Assembly: GCA_030695565.1 (NCBI GenBank)
Contig: JAUYRZ010000120.1
Coordinates: 1 to 32,204, forward strand
Direction: 5' to 3'
DNA length: 32,204 nt
Origin: Archangium sp.
Lineage (GTDB): Bacteria; Myxococcota; Myxococcia; Myxococcales; Myxococcaceae
Position numbers and translations under genes: made by a program. This document shows, piece by piece, positions 18,916 to 24,114 of the stretch. A model generated the notes under the pieces. The model was not told the origin of the DNA, ran no database searches, and worked only from the letters and a program-made list of their open reading frames with translations. How positions within the stretch are numbered: position 1 is the first letter of the stretch; each line of letters opens with the position of its first letter.

Positions 18916-19060
18916 AACCAACCAGCCGCTCTGGCTTCTGGGTGGCGGTTGCTGTGGGTGACGCGTTGCGGCAGGAGGCAGATTACGGGTTGAGGGGGAA
19001 ACCCGGGCTACGATGCAGCTTCGCGGTTGGGCTCCCCACGCCCTCTCCCCAGGAGCATCC

Positions 19061-21979
19061 ATGCCGTTCTTCTCCCGACTGTCCGTCGTCCTGCTGGCCC
19101 TCGGTCTCGCGTCGTGCACGTGCGGGCGCGCTCCGGTGCAGAACGCGCTCAAGCCCGATGGTCAGGCGTGTGCGGAAGACGAAGAGTGCGAGTCGTCGCT
19201 CTGCGACAAGCTCCCCGGCAAGGAGAAGGTCTGCTTCAAGAAGTGTTCGGCCGGCTGCAAGGCGGGCGACCTCTGCAGCGCGCTGGCGGTGAACGACAGG
19301 TTCGCCTGCGTGCCTGAAGTGCCGGGCCTCTGCCAGCCGTGCGCGCTCAACGTCGACTGCCCGTACCCCGGAGATCGCTGCCTGGAGATCGGCGGCACCA
19401 AGGTCTGCTCGCGTGACTGCAGCTTCGATGGCCAGTGCCCCACCAGCTACCGCTGCGCCGACGGCACCGACACCAACGGCGCCTACGTGACCAAGCAGTG
19501 CCAGCCCACCTCCGGCACCTGCGAGTGCGTGGCGGCGAGCGCGGGGCAGACGCAGCCGTGCTCCGAGACCAACAGCTTTGGTACCTGCAACGGCGTTCGC
19601 ACCTGCCGGCCGCCCAACGGCTACGAGGCCTGCACCGCGCCCGTGCCCACCACCGAGTCGTGCAACGGCCGCGATGACGATTGCAACGGCATGACCGACG
19701 AGAACCTGGGCGACACCACCTGCGGCACCGGCGAGTGCCGCCGCACCGTCACCAACTGCGTCAACGGCGCGCCGCAGCCGTGCGAGCCGGGCCTGCCGGG
19801 CATCGAGATCTGCGACGAGAAGGACAACGACTGCGACTCGGTCGTCGACGAGGGCTTCGACAAGCTGACCTCACTGAACAACTGCGGCACCTGCGGCACG
19901 GTCTGCGCCCGGCCCAACGCCATGCCGGTGTGCATGGGCGGCATGTGCAGCATCGGCGCGTGCAACCCCGGCTTCGTCAACGCCGACGGCATCGATGGCA
20001 ACGGCTGCGAGCTGATGTGCACGCCCACCGGCGCTGAAGTCTGCGATGGCACCGACAACGACTGCGATGGGTTCATCGACGAAGGCTTCACGCTCGCCTC
20101 CGACCCCACCAACTGCGGCGTCTGCGGGCGGGTGTGCAACGTGAACAACGGCAACATCCAGACCTACGCGTGCGTGGCCACCCAGTGCGGCATCATGACC
20201 TGCAACTCGGGCTTCGCGGATTGTGACCAGTCGTACGGCACGGGCTGCGAGCGCAACGTCGCCTCCGACATCAACAACTGCGGCAACTGCAACGAGGTGT
20301 GCACCACCCCCAACGCGACGCCGGTCTGTGCCTCGAGCGCGTGCGCGATCGGTTCGTGCAACGCGGGCTACTCCGACTGCGACACGGTGGTGGCCACCGG
20401 CTGCGAGGTGCAGACGGCGACCAACGTCGACAAGTGCGGCAGCTGCACCAACGTCTGCCCGACCCGCAACAACGCGGCGCGCACCTGCGTGGCCGGAGGC
20501 TGCGGCTTCACCTGCAACCCGGGCTTCGTGAACCTCGATGGCAACGCGGCCAACGGCTGCGAGTACACCTGCGTGGCGAGTGGCGCGGATGATCCCGACG
20601 ACAGCTCGACCGACCAAAACTGCGACGGCATCGACGGCGACGTCTCGCGGGCGATCTTCGTCTCGCTCTCCGGCAACGATCTCAACCCGGGTACGCGCCA
20701 GCAGCCCAAGCGCACCATTCAGGCCGGCATTGCGGCGGCCTCCACCACGCTGCCGCACGTGTACGTCTCGGCCGGTTTCTACGATGAGCCGGTGGCGCTG
20801 CGCAGCGGCGTGTCGATCTACGGCGGGTACGCGCCCACCACCTGGGTGCGCGGGCCGGGCTCGGTGGTCACCATTCGCAACGGGCTCATCAACGCGGGCC
20901 GCATCGTGGCGGTCTCGGGTCTGGGCATCACCGAGCCGAGCACCATCGCGTACGTCACCATTCGTGCGCTCGACACCACCGCCGCGGGGGTGAGCACCTA
21001 CGGTCTGCACTGTGAGAACTGCCCGGCGTTGACTGTGCGCTCCTCGCTGATCATCGCGGGCTCGGCGGGCGCGGGCACGAACGGCTCCAGCACGGGAGCG
21101 GGCGCCAGTGGCTCGGGCGGCTTCAACGGCAACGGTGGCTCTTGCGACAACTCGGCAGGTTCGGGCGGCGCTGCGGGTACCTCGAGCTGTGGCCGCAATG
21201 GTGGCGCAGGTGGATTCGGAGGGCAGGAAGGCCGGAACACCGGTACCCCCGGCGCCACGGGCGTGGTGGGCACCCCGGGAGGTGGAGGTGGAGGTGGCGG
21301 TGGTAGCTGCAACGCGTTCTGCGGCAGCTGCAGCGCGGGCGGCCGAGGTGGTGACGGCTTCAATGGGACTTCGGGCTCGAGCGGGAGCAACGGCGGCGCG
21401 GGCAATGGTGGCGTGGTGGTCGCCAGCTTCTGGGTGGGTTCTTCGGGCGGCAACGGCGCCAACGGCCTGCATGGCAACGGCGGCGGCGGCGGTGGTGGTG
21501 GTGGTGGCCAGGGCGGCGGCTGCGTCGATGACGGCGGCGGCAACGGCGGCGGTGGTGGTGGCGCGGGCGGCTGCGGCGGTGGTGGTGGCCTGGGTGGCGG
21601 CGCTGGCGGCGGCTCGTTCGGCGTCTTCCTGGTGAACTCCAACGGCATCCGTTTCGAGAACGCGGAGATCAGCAGCGGCAACGGCGGCTCGGGTGGTGTG
21701 GGCGCGCCGGGGGCGGGTGGTGGTTCGGGTGGCGGGCGTGGGTTCGGCGCCAACACCTGCACCGGCGAGGTCGGTGGTGGTGGCAACGGTGGCCTCGGCG
21801 GCGATGGCGGCGGAGGTGGCCACGGCGGCGGCGGCGCGGGCGGGTTGTCGTACGGCATCTACCGCGTCAACACGGCGCCCACGCTGGTCGGCGGCTTCAT
21901 CTCGCCTGGTAACGCGGGCAACGGCGGCTTCTCGCCGGGCGCGTCGGGTTCGCCGGGTACGTCGGGCACGATGAACTGA
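19061..21979 (+). CDS. Large lipoprotein: MopE motifs, DUF1565-like region, PGRS-like glycine tail
   Basis: A 972-residue surface protein. AGGAG lies 6 nt before the ATG at 19061, which begins the lipoprotein signal MPFFSRLSVVLLALGLASC (Cys19). Residues about 25-190 are Cys-rich. Three MopE-type motifs follow at about 199, 249 and 326 (ESCNGRDDDCNGMTDENL, EICDEKDNDCDSVVDEGF, EVCDGTDNDCDGFIDEGF). These are interleaved with NCGxCGxVC ... ACNPGFV modules to about residue 520. Around 530-650 there is a pectin-lyase-like DUF1565 signature (SLSGNDLNPGTRQQPKRTIQAGI and GVSIYGGY). From about 667 to the end the protein is roughly half glycine, in GGxGG runs. No enzyme motif is seen; a structural or adhesive surface role is inferred. 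Confidence 0.88.
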   Translation: MPFFSRLSVVLLALGLASCTCGRAPVQNALKPDGQACAEDEECESSLCDKLPGKEKVCFKKCSAGCKAGDLCSALAVNDRFACVPEVPGLCQPCALNVDCPYPGDRCLEIGGTKVCSRDCSFDGQCPTSYRCADGTDTNGAYVTKQCQPTSGTCECVAASAGQTQPCSETNSFGTCNGVRTCRPPNGYEACTAPVPTTESCNGRDDDCNGMTDENLGDTTCGTGECRRTVTNCVNGAPQPCEPGLPGIEICDEKDNDCDSVVDEGFDKLTSLNNCGTCGTVCARPNAMPVCMGGMCSIGACNPGFVNADGIDGNGCELMCTPTGAEVCDGTDNDCDGFIDEGFTLASDPTNCGVCGRVCNVNNGNIQTYACVATQCGIMTCNSGFADCDQSYGTGCERNVASDINNCGNCNEVCTTPNATPVCASSACAIGSCNAGYSDCDTVVATGCEVQTATNVDKCGSCTNVCPTRNNAARTCVAGGCGFTCNPGFVNLDGNAANGCEYTCVASGADDPDDSSTDQNCDGIDGDVSRAIFVSLSGNDLNPGTRQQPKRTIQAGIAAASTTLPHVYVSAGFYDEPVALRSGVSIYGGYAPTTWVRGPGSVVTIRNGLINAGRIVAVSGLGITEPSTIAYVTIRALDTTAAGVSTYGLHCENCPALTVRSSLIIAGSAGAGTNGSSTGAGASGSGGFNGNGGSCDNSAGSGGAAGTSSCGRNGGAGGFGGQEGRNTGTPGATGVVGTPGGGGGGGGGSCNAFCGSCSAGGRGGDGFNGTSGSSGSNGGAGNGGVVVASFWVGSSGGNGANGLHGNGGGGGGGGGGQGGGCVDDGGGNGGGGGGAGGCGGGGGLGGGAGGGSFGVFLVNSNGIRFENAEISSGNGGSGGVGAPGAGGGSGGGRGFGANTCTGEVGGGGNGGLGGDGGGGGHGGGGAGGLSYGIYRVNTAPTLVGGFISPGNAGNGGFSPGASGSPGTSGTMN
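21060..21975 (+). repeat. Glycine-coding low-complexity tract (PGRS-like)
   Basis: About 300 codons dominated by GGN, with short irregular runs such as GGGGGG and GNGGSGG interrupted by Asn, Ser and Ala. Synonymous codons vary (GGC, GGT, GGA), so the tract is not a simple nucleotide repeat. It lies wholly within the preceding lipoprotein gene. Confidence 0.75.
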
Positions 21980-22183
21980 TTCAGGTCTCTCGGTAGCGAC
22001 CCAGAAACCGCACCGGGGAAGGCGGTCAAGGCTGGGGCTGCTTCGGTGCTCGTGCCGCGCAGGCCTCTCGGCTTCGCGCGAAGGCGTTTACGGGGCGAAT
22101 TCGGCGCGTTCAGCCGACCCGGGTCACTTGAGTCGAAGCTGGCCTGTTCGAGGCCTTTCCCGGCTTCCGATTGCGAGTCCTCA

Positions 22184-22271
22184 TGTTGCGGATACTGCAT
22201 CGAGAGCCGATTCTTGCTCGCGGCCGTACGGCAGCTCGGGAAATCCGGCGCTCGATGCAGAATCCGCAACA
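22184..22271. repeat. Long inverted repeat, unit 1
   Basis: Arms at 22184-22204 (starting TGTTGCGGAT) and 22251-22271 (ending ATCCGCAACA) are complementary over 21 bp with a single mismatch. The loop is 46 nt and contains the palindrome CCGTACGG. It could form a strong hairpin in RNA or single-stranded DNA. Confidence 0.8.
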
Positions 22272-22318
22272 CGGCTCGCGAACGACCTGGGTTCAGCGCC
22301 TTCACGCTCGAGTGTTCG

Positions 22319-22407
22319 TGTTACGGATTCTCCATCGACGCCCTGTTTCTGCTCGCAGCCGTACGACGCATCGCAAGATATCGGTGCTCGATGAAGAATC
22401 CGTAACA
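22319..22407. repeat. Long inverted repeat, unit 2
   Basis: Arms at 22319-22338 (starting TGTTACGGAT) and 22388-22407 (ending ATCCGTAACA) pair over 20 bp with one mismatch, with a 49-nt loop containing CAGCCGTACGA. It is homologous to unit 1 with a 135-bp period. The G:C pair in GTTGCGG/CCGCAAC is A:T here on both arms. Confidence 0.8.
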
Positions 22408-22506
22408 GGCCTGCGACCTGCGGGTCCTCGCCCGAGGCCGAGAGCCTGTTCGACGCGACCCCGATGCAGATCCGGAAACCAGCTCGTTCCCCAAGGCCGA
22501 TTGACG

Positions 22507-24114
22507 TCACTGCACCAGGCCCTGCTTCACCAGCCAGCCCACGATGAAGCGCGCCACCCACGGGCGGCGATCGACCAGGCGGGTGATCATCTCGGCCTCG
22601 AGCTCGCCCAGCGTCCGCGGCTCGGTGGTGTTGATCAGCAGCGCTCGCACGTCTTCTTCGACGAAGAGGTGTTTGAGCTCGGGGTAGATGACGAAGTCGT
22701 TCGCCCGCGAGCTGCGCTGCACACGCCGTGATGGGTCGAACGTCGCCGTGGGGAAGTGACCGAAGAAGTCGCCGTAGTCGAGGCGCAGCGGGTGCGGTTT
22801 GCCACTGGGCTTCGCGCCTGTCGCAGCGAGGCGGTGCCACTCGTACTCGTACTTCGGAATCACCACGCTCCAGTCGTAGCGTTCACGTGCACGCCCGGCG
22901 GCCGCCTTGCCGAGGCGTTCACGCCGCGCCGGATCGAGCACCAGCTCACGCAGCGCAGACTCGAGCGGGCCCAGCTCGACCTCGATCGACTGCGCCAACA
23001 CCAGGTGCAGCGGCCGCTCGTACAACAGCGGCGCGAGCTCACTCAGCTCCGACCAATCGACGTTGAGTCGCGTCGGCACGCGCACGCCCACGGTCTCATC
23101 CACCGTGTCGCGGTAGCCGTCGAAGTCGGAGGCCACCACCGGCAACCCCGCGGCGAGCGCTTCGATCACCGACTGACCGAAGGTCTCCTGCACGTTGTCC
23201 ACCGGCGAGACGAAGAGGTCGCTCGCAGCCAGCAGGTCCTTCTTCTCGGCGTCGGTGAAGTCGACCTTGAGGCGCAGGCGATCGTGCACGCCCAGGTGAC
23301 GCGCCCACAGCTCGAGCATCTCGGGCGTCTTCGTGCCCTGCCGCGCACCGGCGAGCAGGAGATAGACGGGCGGCGCTCCGGCGCTCGGCTCGCTCACCAG
23401 CTTCTCCAGCACGCGCAGCACCGGAAAGAGGTCGAGCTTGTCGTACTCTGTGAAGCGCGCGAGGCAGGTGATGAGCACGGCGTTCGAAGGCAGGTTGAGC
23501 GAGGTGCGCGTGGCGGCCCGATTGCCTCCGATCACCGAGTCCAGCTCGACGCCCAGCGGCACGTGCGGCAGATCCCAACGGGGCAGGGTGCCTTGAAATC
23601 CGGCGGTCTGCGCTTCGCTCTCCAGCCGGTTGAAGCTGCGTTCGATGACGCCGCGGCCCGCGGTGGAAGAACAGAACAGCGCGTCGGAAGCGGTGGGGCG
23701 CACGAAGAGGTGGCGCGCGAGCTCCTGGTGAAAACGCGGGTACGACAGCGAGTGGATCTGCCCGGTCACCGGCACCGTCTTCGAGGCGAACCGATCGCGC
23801 GCGGCGAGCAGATCGTAGAGCCGGTCGACGTGAGAGGCGTGGTGCAGCACGTCGAGGCGCCCTCGCGACAACAGCTCAGGCAGTTGCCACACCGTGTACG
23901 CCGCCAGCCGCTCTTCCGGCACGTTCCAGGTCTGCGTGAGCTGCTCGAGCGCGGGGAGGTCTGCGGTCTCTCCGATGAAGAGCGCGATCTCTTCGAAGCT
24001 CGAATGGCGCAGCAGCGCTTTGAGGAACTGCGCGTTGGCCACGGTCCGGCCGACCAGTGGTTGACCTGGAGTGGTCCAGGTTCCCGGTGCGGCCAACATT
24101 CCCAGTGTTCGCAT
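22507..24114 (-). CDS. GT4-family glycosyltransferase with C-terminal extension
   Basis: A 535-residue GT-B fold enzyme. The nucleotide-sugar half shows LNLPSNAVLITCLARFTEYDK, then KKDLLAASDLFVSPVDNVQETFGQSVIEALAAGLPVVASDFDGYRD, which is the GT4 signature with the catalytic ExxFGxxxxEA element. The acceptor half (about 1-215) is not assignable. Beyond the usual end (about residue 425) there is an extra stretch of 110 residues containing FFGHFPTATFDPSRRVQ and LFVEEDVRALLINT, ending LVKQGLVQ, possibly a small winged-helix-like domain; this is unrecognised. Probably makes an exported polysaccharide or glycoconjugate. Stands 37 nt from the next minus-strand gene, so the two could share an mRNA. 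Confidence 0.87.
   Translation of the reverse strand: MRTLGMLAAPGTWTTPGQPLVGRTVANAQFLKALLRHSSFEEIALFIGETADLPALEQLTQTWNVPEERLAAYTVWQLPELLSRGRLDVLHHASHVDRLYDLLAARDRFASKTVPVTGQIHSLSYPRFHQELARHLFVRPTASDALFCSSTAGRGVIERSFNRLESEAQTAGFQGTLPRWDLPHVPLGVELDSVIGGNRAATRTSLNLPSNAVLITCLARFTEYDKLDLFPVLRVLEKLVSEPSAGAPPVYLLLAGARQGTKTPEMLELWARHLGVHDRLRLKVDFTDAEKKDLLAASDLFVSPVDNVQETFGQSVIEALAAGLPVVASDFDGYRDTVDETVGVRVPTRLNVDWSELSELAPLLYERPLHLVLAQSIEVELGPLESALRELVLDPARRERLGKAAAGRARERYDWSVVIPKYEYEWHRLAATGAKPSGKPHPLRLDYGDFFGHFPTATFDPSRRVQRSSRANDFVIYPELKHLFVEEDVRALLINTTEPRTLGELEAEMITRLVDRRPWVARFIVGWLVKQGLVQ

Follow-up and report, generated by a model that had tools for sequence, protein, structure and literature searches.

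Paired stem-loops in an Archangium genome as probable REP-like palindromes with an AbiEi–Vsr-fold nuclease partner

Two stem-loops between convergent genes

The window, i.e. the whole stretch of 32,204 nucleotides that was analysed, contains a composite of nested inverted repeats in the spacer between two convergent genes, which encode a protein with MopE-like metal-binding motifs and a group 1 glycosyltransferase (Table 1). When the window was scanned for inverted repeats in 320 tiles, the two inner stem-loops ranked first and second, with scores of 21.0 and 17.5, and the third-ranking repeat reached 12.5. Folding of the DNA strand gave z values of -6.4 for unit 1 and -3.9 for unit 2, none of 200 shuffles folding as well. 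The first-pass annotation had described two homologous units at a distance of 135 bp, with a single arm mismatch in either unit. Both points are borne out: the starts of the 88- and 89-nt units are separated by 135 bp, and the 20-bp arms of each unit contain one mismatch. The compensatory change from GTTGCGG/CCGCAAC to GTTACGG/CCGTAAC, also pointed out at that stage, is real, and the same swap recurs across the repeat family to which the units belong (family 1): the pair is G-C in eight of the 16 copies, A-U in seven and G-U in one.

Table 1. Features of the composite and its flanking genes, in window coordinates
Feature	Position	Strand	Basis or remark
MopE-like metal-binding motif protein gene	19013..21979	+	convergent flank; context
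Spacer of 527 bp holding the composite	21980..22506	.	between convergent genes
Outer repeat, left arm, AGGCCTCTCGGCTTCG...	22061..22080 (AGGCCTCTCGGCTTCG at 22061-22076)	+	second dispersed family, nesting the hairpins
Family-1 palindrome unit 1, 88 nt; arms of ~20-23 bp, TGTTGCGGATACTGCATCGA; loop of ~42-48 nt	22184..22271	.	inverted-repeat scan, fold, family alignment
Family-1 palindrome unit 2, 89 nt; arms TGTTACGGATTCT[C/T]CATCGA	22319..22407	.
Outer repeat, right arm, TCCTCGCCCGAGGCCGAGAGCCTG	22425..22448	-
Recurrent outermost motif TTCCCCAAGGCC; end GCCTTGGGGAA at other copies	22486..22498	.	by eye; probable right edge of the composite element
Group 1 glycosyltransferase gene	22507..24114	-	convergent flank; used in synteny test

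Further copies were located by BLAST, pattern and covariance-model searches, the covariance model being built from 16 family-1 copies. The Archangium-like source genome (G000; 8.5 Mb in 134 contigs, hereafter C with a number; loci and proteins are designated L with a number) contains about 20 family-1 hairpins at 16 sites, corresponding to 41 model matches at E<=1 with both strands taken together. Dispersal of the palindrome to extragenic places in the same genome, which the first-pass annotation had proposed to look for, is thereby established. Among 147 genomes of the class, most of the genomes compared being MAGs, the model matches only G000, G003, G004 and G097. The copies lie mostly at gene 3' ends, and, with an approximate choice of open reading frames, 11 of the 16 sites are bordered by convergent genes. 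In the alignment of the 16 copies, 89% of the pair cells are standard pairs versus 77% in shuffles. Covariation, for which an analysis had likewise been suggested, is present: both sides have changed at nine of the 20 arm pairs, with a score equalled by none of 500 shuffles, and therefore the two arms of one copy change together. The total length is nearly constant within a class of 87-90 nt and another of 99 nt, and units of 120 nt also occur. Ungapped loop identity is only about 54% in the 88-nt class and 46% in the 99-nt class; loop length is nevertheless constant. At L317 (G000:C35:37500-39000), a full 88-nt unit is followed by the right half alone of another one, which suggests that units have recombined.

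The weaker outer inverted pair that had been noted around both units, near 22061 and 22437, proved to be a second repeat family. Many family-1 hairpins of the Archangium genome sit within this outer inverted repeat, AGGCCTCTCGGCTTCGGGCGAGGA and its mirror, and the outer repeat occurs both with and without an inner hairpin. The hairpin is present at most sites of the outer family and absent at C3, C19 and G003:C20. Arms of the outer family are found in inverted orientation on either side of a fourth nuclease gene of the same genome (C78, L096; these genes are described below) and are similarly placed at both flanks of a nuclease gene of G004 (L134). With flank scores of 15.5 and 17 against a background of up to 15, it is only suggestive that the outer repeat is the palindrome of the C78 nuclease and that the composite of the window is one private family nested in another. 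A further palindrome, CCAGCGTACAGC..GCTGTACGCTGG, is present twice upstream of a nuclease gene of G003 (L114, G003:C48), and sequence similar to it lies within the outer-repeat copies at G000:C19, G000:C3 and G003:C20 (L007, L008 and L025).

The first-pass annotation had left the choice between a mobile element of the MITE/REP class and a structured RNA. The mobile-element direction stands, and the RNA does not. Orthologues of the glycosyltransferase were found in G003 (88% identity) and G005 (83%), and in both genomes the neighbouring gene is convergent and of the same repetitive type. Both junctions are free of hairpins: in G005 almost nothing separates the two stop codons (~0 bp), and the spacer of G003 measures about 165 bp. 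The conserved synteny in relatives that would have spoken for an RNA is thus not found. Rfam gave no match anywhere in the window. A conserved structured RNA was rejected on these two grounds, and a structured RNA or 3'-end stabiliser or terminator selected for its folding has barely any probability in our view. The strong covariation of the arms and the position of copies near gene 3' ends would suit such an element, but, besides the empty orthologous junctions and the Rfam result, the loops are variable in sequence and fixed in length, and the copies group by genome and not by locus. A secondary effect of the palindromes on mRNA ends, as for REPs, is possible. Integron attC sites read RYYYAAC...GTTRRRY; they were rejected as candidates because the window units start with GTT and end with AAC, opposite to the ends of attC.

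Nuclease genes and their private palindromes

At two sites of the Archangium genome, on C73 and C79, the hairpins immediately precede genes that are homologous to each other (63% identity). Their products combine an AbiEi_4 domain with a DUF559/MTES_1575 nuclease domain according to Pfam and contain no Transposase_17 domain. In the search of the class, proteins at least 55% identical to the C79 nuclease were found only in G000 (two), G003, G005 and G097. Both at C73 and at the G003 nuclease gene, a further palindrome, of the TGTT[G/C]CG type, has its end 15 nt 5' of the ATG. The copy nearest the gene at C73 has degenerated and does not form a hairpin, but it is still matched by the covariance model; the C79 copy is also weak. 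In G097, which belongs to another genus, the nuclease (56% identity) has TGTCACGGATACTGCCAAC..GTTGGCAGTATGCGTGACA upstream, and the same palindrome is dispersed in that genome, including arrays of two and three units. The G005 nuclease gene, in a genome where the family-1 model has no match, has a palindrome GTTGCGTA..TACGCAAC upstream. G004 contains family-1-like hairpins without a close nuclease in its fragmented assembly. The nuclease gene on C123 of the Archangium genome is flanked on either side by a different palindrome, AATCGGTTGTGACGA..TCGTCACAACCGATT, which also occurs at five other sites. A true Vsr gene beside a cytosine methyltransferase gene (C73:57046) and a short DUF559 protein on C50 were set aside, both being apparently unrelated to the palindromes; at L064 (G000:C73:55546-58674) the conventional Vsr gene next to a cytosine methyltransferase gene has only a 15/18 inverted repeat near it. 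Inspection by eye of the regions beside the C79 and C73 genes showed no toxin gene (DUF1814 nucleotidyltransferase).

Genes for AbiEi–DUF559 nucleases are present in 26 of the 147 genomes of the class, and their linkage to palindromes is established. A palindrome with a score of at least 13 lies within 180 nt upstream of 14 of 65 genes, versus one of 246 control windows taken at these loci, none of 256 gene-interior windows and none of 195 shuffles. For homologues in other phyla (GTDB contigs, mostly Actinomycetota), a score of at least 15 was reached in 8 of 51 cases versus 0 of 356. By the score used, a strong upstream palindrome is lacking at about three quarters of the nuclease genes. In many cases the gene is flanked on its two sides: the same repeat, at a score of at least 18, is present up- and downstream of 17 of 109 genes from several phyla versus none of 600 mismatched gene pairs, examples being L202, from Acidobacteria and with a 46-nt unit, L222, L224, L245, L095 and L215. 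At L202 (Acidobacteria ATN2), near-identical 46-nt units, TGTGAACGCGCGTGGCCCCTATAGGGGCC..GGTTCACA, flank the nuclease gene at distances of 34 nt upstream and 8 nt downstream. This shows that the pairing of palindrome and nuclease extends to Acidobacteria.

For 22 palindromes, picked solely by their score upstream of a nuclease gene, copies were searched in 17 genomes. Among the matches listed, at least 115 distinct places (after merging) were obtained, none of them outside the palindrome's own genome, and at least 17 of the 22 have copies on other contigs of that genome, up to at least 34 for the L222 palindrome in G153. Palindrome and genome are thus paired privately and one to one, and this is so in several phyla. 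For a nuclease of G133, the home genome has five more copies of its palindrome; none of the other 146 genomes gave a convincing match, the weak ones there lying outside the palindrome. Similarity of the nucleases and similarity of their palindromes are only weakly correlated (Mantel r 0.17, p 0.0006), and fast divergence must therefore be assumed. In several tandem arrays of the 46-bp unit in G153 (L326-L345), the outermost arms are complementary and the inner arms are altered (CCACCG, CGGTGG), as if the ends of the array were selected as one unit; L330 and L335 are exceptions to this pattern.

Domain architecture, operator geometry and proposed mechanism

The predicted model of the Archangium orthologue L193 (pLDDT 92.8) resembles the AbiEi antitoxin 6y8q over residues 7-197 (Z 13.6, 183 residues aligned), whereas residues 205-310 resemble the homing endonuclease I-Bth0305I (3r3p, Z 12.3) and Vsr (1cw0, Z 10.9). 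PADLOC also reported AbiEi matches, with E values down to 1e-34. Catalytic residues are conserved: E251 is invariant in 42 homologues, as are T136, R140, T141 and D144, and S205, E208, D240, D253 and H258 are at least 90% conserved. With E251 invariant and E208, D240, D253 and H258 conserved to this degree, the nuclease is probably active. AbiEi binds paired 23-bp inverted repeats in its own promoter, resulting in autoregulation, and the spacing of these repeats is 3 bp for the AbiEi of S. agalactiae and 13 bp for Rv2827c of M. tuberculosis (PMC7319586). Two repeats of 23 bp with a gap of 3 or 13 bp make operators of 49 and 59 bp. The palindromes upstream of the nuclease genes are mostly 46-49 or 57-59 nt long, several being 52-55 nt, and the unit of G153 is exactly 46 bp, i.e. 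2 x 23. The 88.5-, 99- and 120-nt lengths of family 1 differ by about one and about three helical turns, these being few classes. Such fixed lengths suggest binding to double-stranded DNA with a fixed phase and point to a double-stranded, operator-like site.

We consider it likely that the stem-loops of the window are non-autonomous, REP-like extragenic palindromes whose partner is the AbiEi–Vsr-fold nuclease encoded at C79 and C73. Binding of the arms by this protein, cleavage, nuclease-driven copying and mobility are what we infer from the arrangement. Two AbiEi modules would bind the two inverted arms as double-stranded DNA and would in this way set the spacing from arm to arm. The palindrome copy on the side of the gene may be its operator and at once the cognate site that the protein recognises. 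Cutting by the nuclease would then take place at or near palindromes, and repair or copying after the cut could spread the palindrome to extragenic sites, mostly at gene 3' ends. As both arms change together, copying may pass through a folded intermediate or involve a switch of template from one arm to the other.

Two other explanations of the dispersed copies have to be weighed. The nuclease-AbiEi protein could be an autoregulated regulator, or restriction-like, with the gene-side palindromes as its operators. The dispersed copies would then be additional binding sites, forming a regulon or marking the chromosome, and unrelated processes would have spread them. The known autoregulation of AbiEi antitoxins through paired 23-bp promoter repeats (PMC7319586) and the many palindromes of operator-like length placed about 26-63 nt before a start codon agree with this. 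But many genes have the same repeat also just past their stop codon, copies occur in tandem arrays, and family-1 sites are frequent between convergent genes, where a promoter is not expected, so that we regard an operator function alone as unlikely. Nested terminal inverted repeats, extragenic dispersal and the finding of outer arms without the inner hairpin would, for their part, be compatible with ordinary MITEs. In that case, deletions in a classical DDE transposon would have produced the palindromes, or the 300-500 bp composite with the outer arms, and the nuclease genes would be mere hitch-hikers or landing sites. Such an origin leaves unexplained the link to one protein family in many genomes with a different palindrome each time. 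Moreover, the unit elsewhere is the palindrome of 46-60 nt alone, and inspection by eye of 38 aligned G153 units revealed no convincing target-site duplication. None was recognised in the window either, where the flanks of the empty sites in congeners are too diverged. We therefore accord ordinary MITEs little probability. The preferred reading remains that of a palindrome copied with the help of its own nuclease.

Significance and relation to known systems

REP-type palindromes are widespread in bacteria. The pairs described here may represent an undescribed class of self-dispersing element, in which an antitoxin-derived DNA-binding module joined to a homing-endonuclease-type nuclease would recognise its own operator as double-stranded DNA and have it copied genome-wide, giving each genome its private palindromes, in Myxococcota, Actinomycetota and at least one Acidobacteria MAG. 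We find this wider proposal about equally easy to accept and to doubt. In the open-licence literature on DUF559, AbiEi fusions and REP-associated nucleases, preprints excluded, no earlier description of such a system was found. If the proposal is true, the REP-type life style arose more than once, the second time with an unrelated enzyme carrying a double-strand-type nuclease, and a concrete function could be given to many genes annotated as 'AbiEi antitoxin domain / DUF559' and classified as toxin-antitoxin or unknown. It also makes the testable claim that a repressor that gains a nuclease can turn its operator into a mobile element. The pairs would be natural matched sets of a protein and a 2 x 23 bp target for recognition studies.

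The type IV toxin-antitoxin system AbiE resembles the present one in that the N-terminal two thirds of the nuclease protein match AbiEi in fold and sequence, and in the paired repeats of the promoter region. AbiE differs in that the protein here has a nuclease domain fused at its C-terminus and a palindrome dispersed genome-wide. With the Vsr-fold homing endonucleases (EDxHD type), Vsr and DUF559 proteins it shares the C-terminal fold and the conserved acidic residues and histidine. Unlike homing endonucleases of this fold, the genes appear to be free-standing, outside any intron or intein, the recognition module is of the AbiEi type, and palindromes are present on both sides of the gene with no interrupted cleavage site. 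The palindromes are similar to MITEs as small non-coding extragenic elements with inverted ends, probably mobilised in trans, but no target-site duplication was recognised for them.

The closest parallel is with REP and REPIN sequences and their RAYT enzymes, where short extragenic palindromes flank the enzyme gene and each enzyme has its own palindrome (PMC2817692, PMC8266576). The same traits are seen here: short extragenic palindromes dispersed in many copies, with tandem clusters and a frequent location at gene 3' ends; an enzyme encoded by one gene, with palindrome copies on either side of it in the 17 of 109 genes mentioned above and not in most; and for each enzyme a palindrome of its own. 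In contrast to REPs, the units are longer and of operator-like size, and the copy number is mostly lower, from a few to about 40 versus typically more than 100. No GTAG/CGTC tag shared among the 22 private palindromes was seen by eye. The enzyme here combines AbiEi with a Vsr-fold nuclease and is not a HuH tyrosine transposase (IS200-IS605, Transposase_17), and because of this the palindrome-nuclease system is not a member of the REP/RAYT class. To our knowledge, RAYTs are the only enzyme class tied to REP-type palindromes. Since the nuclease is unrelated to them, the system could be categorically new; on a stricter view, it could be a variant of REP-like systems.
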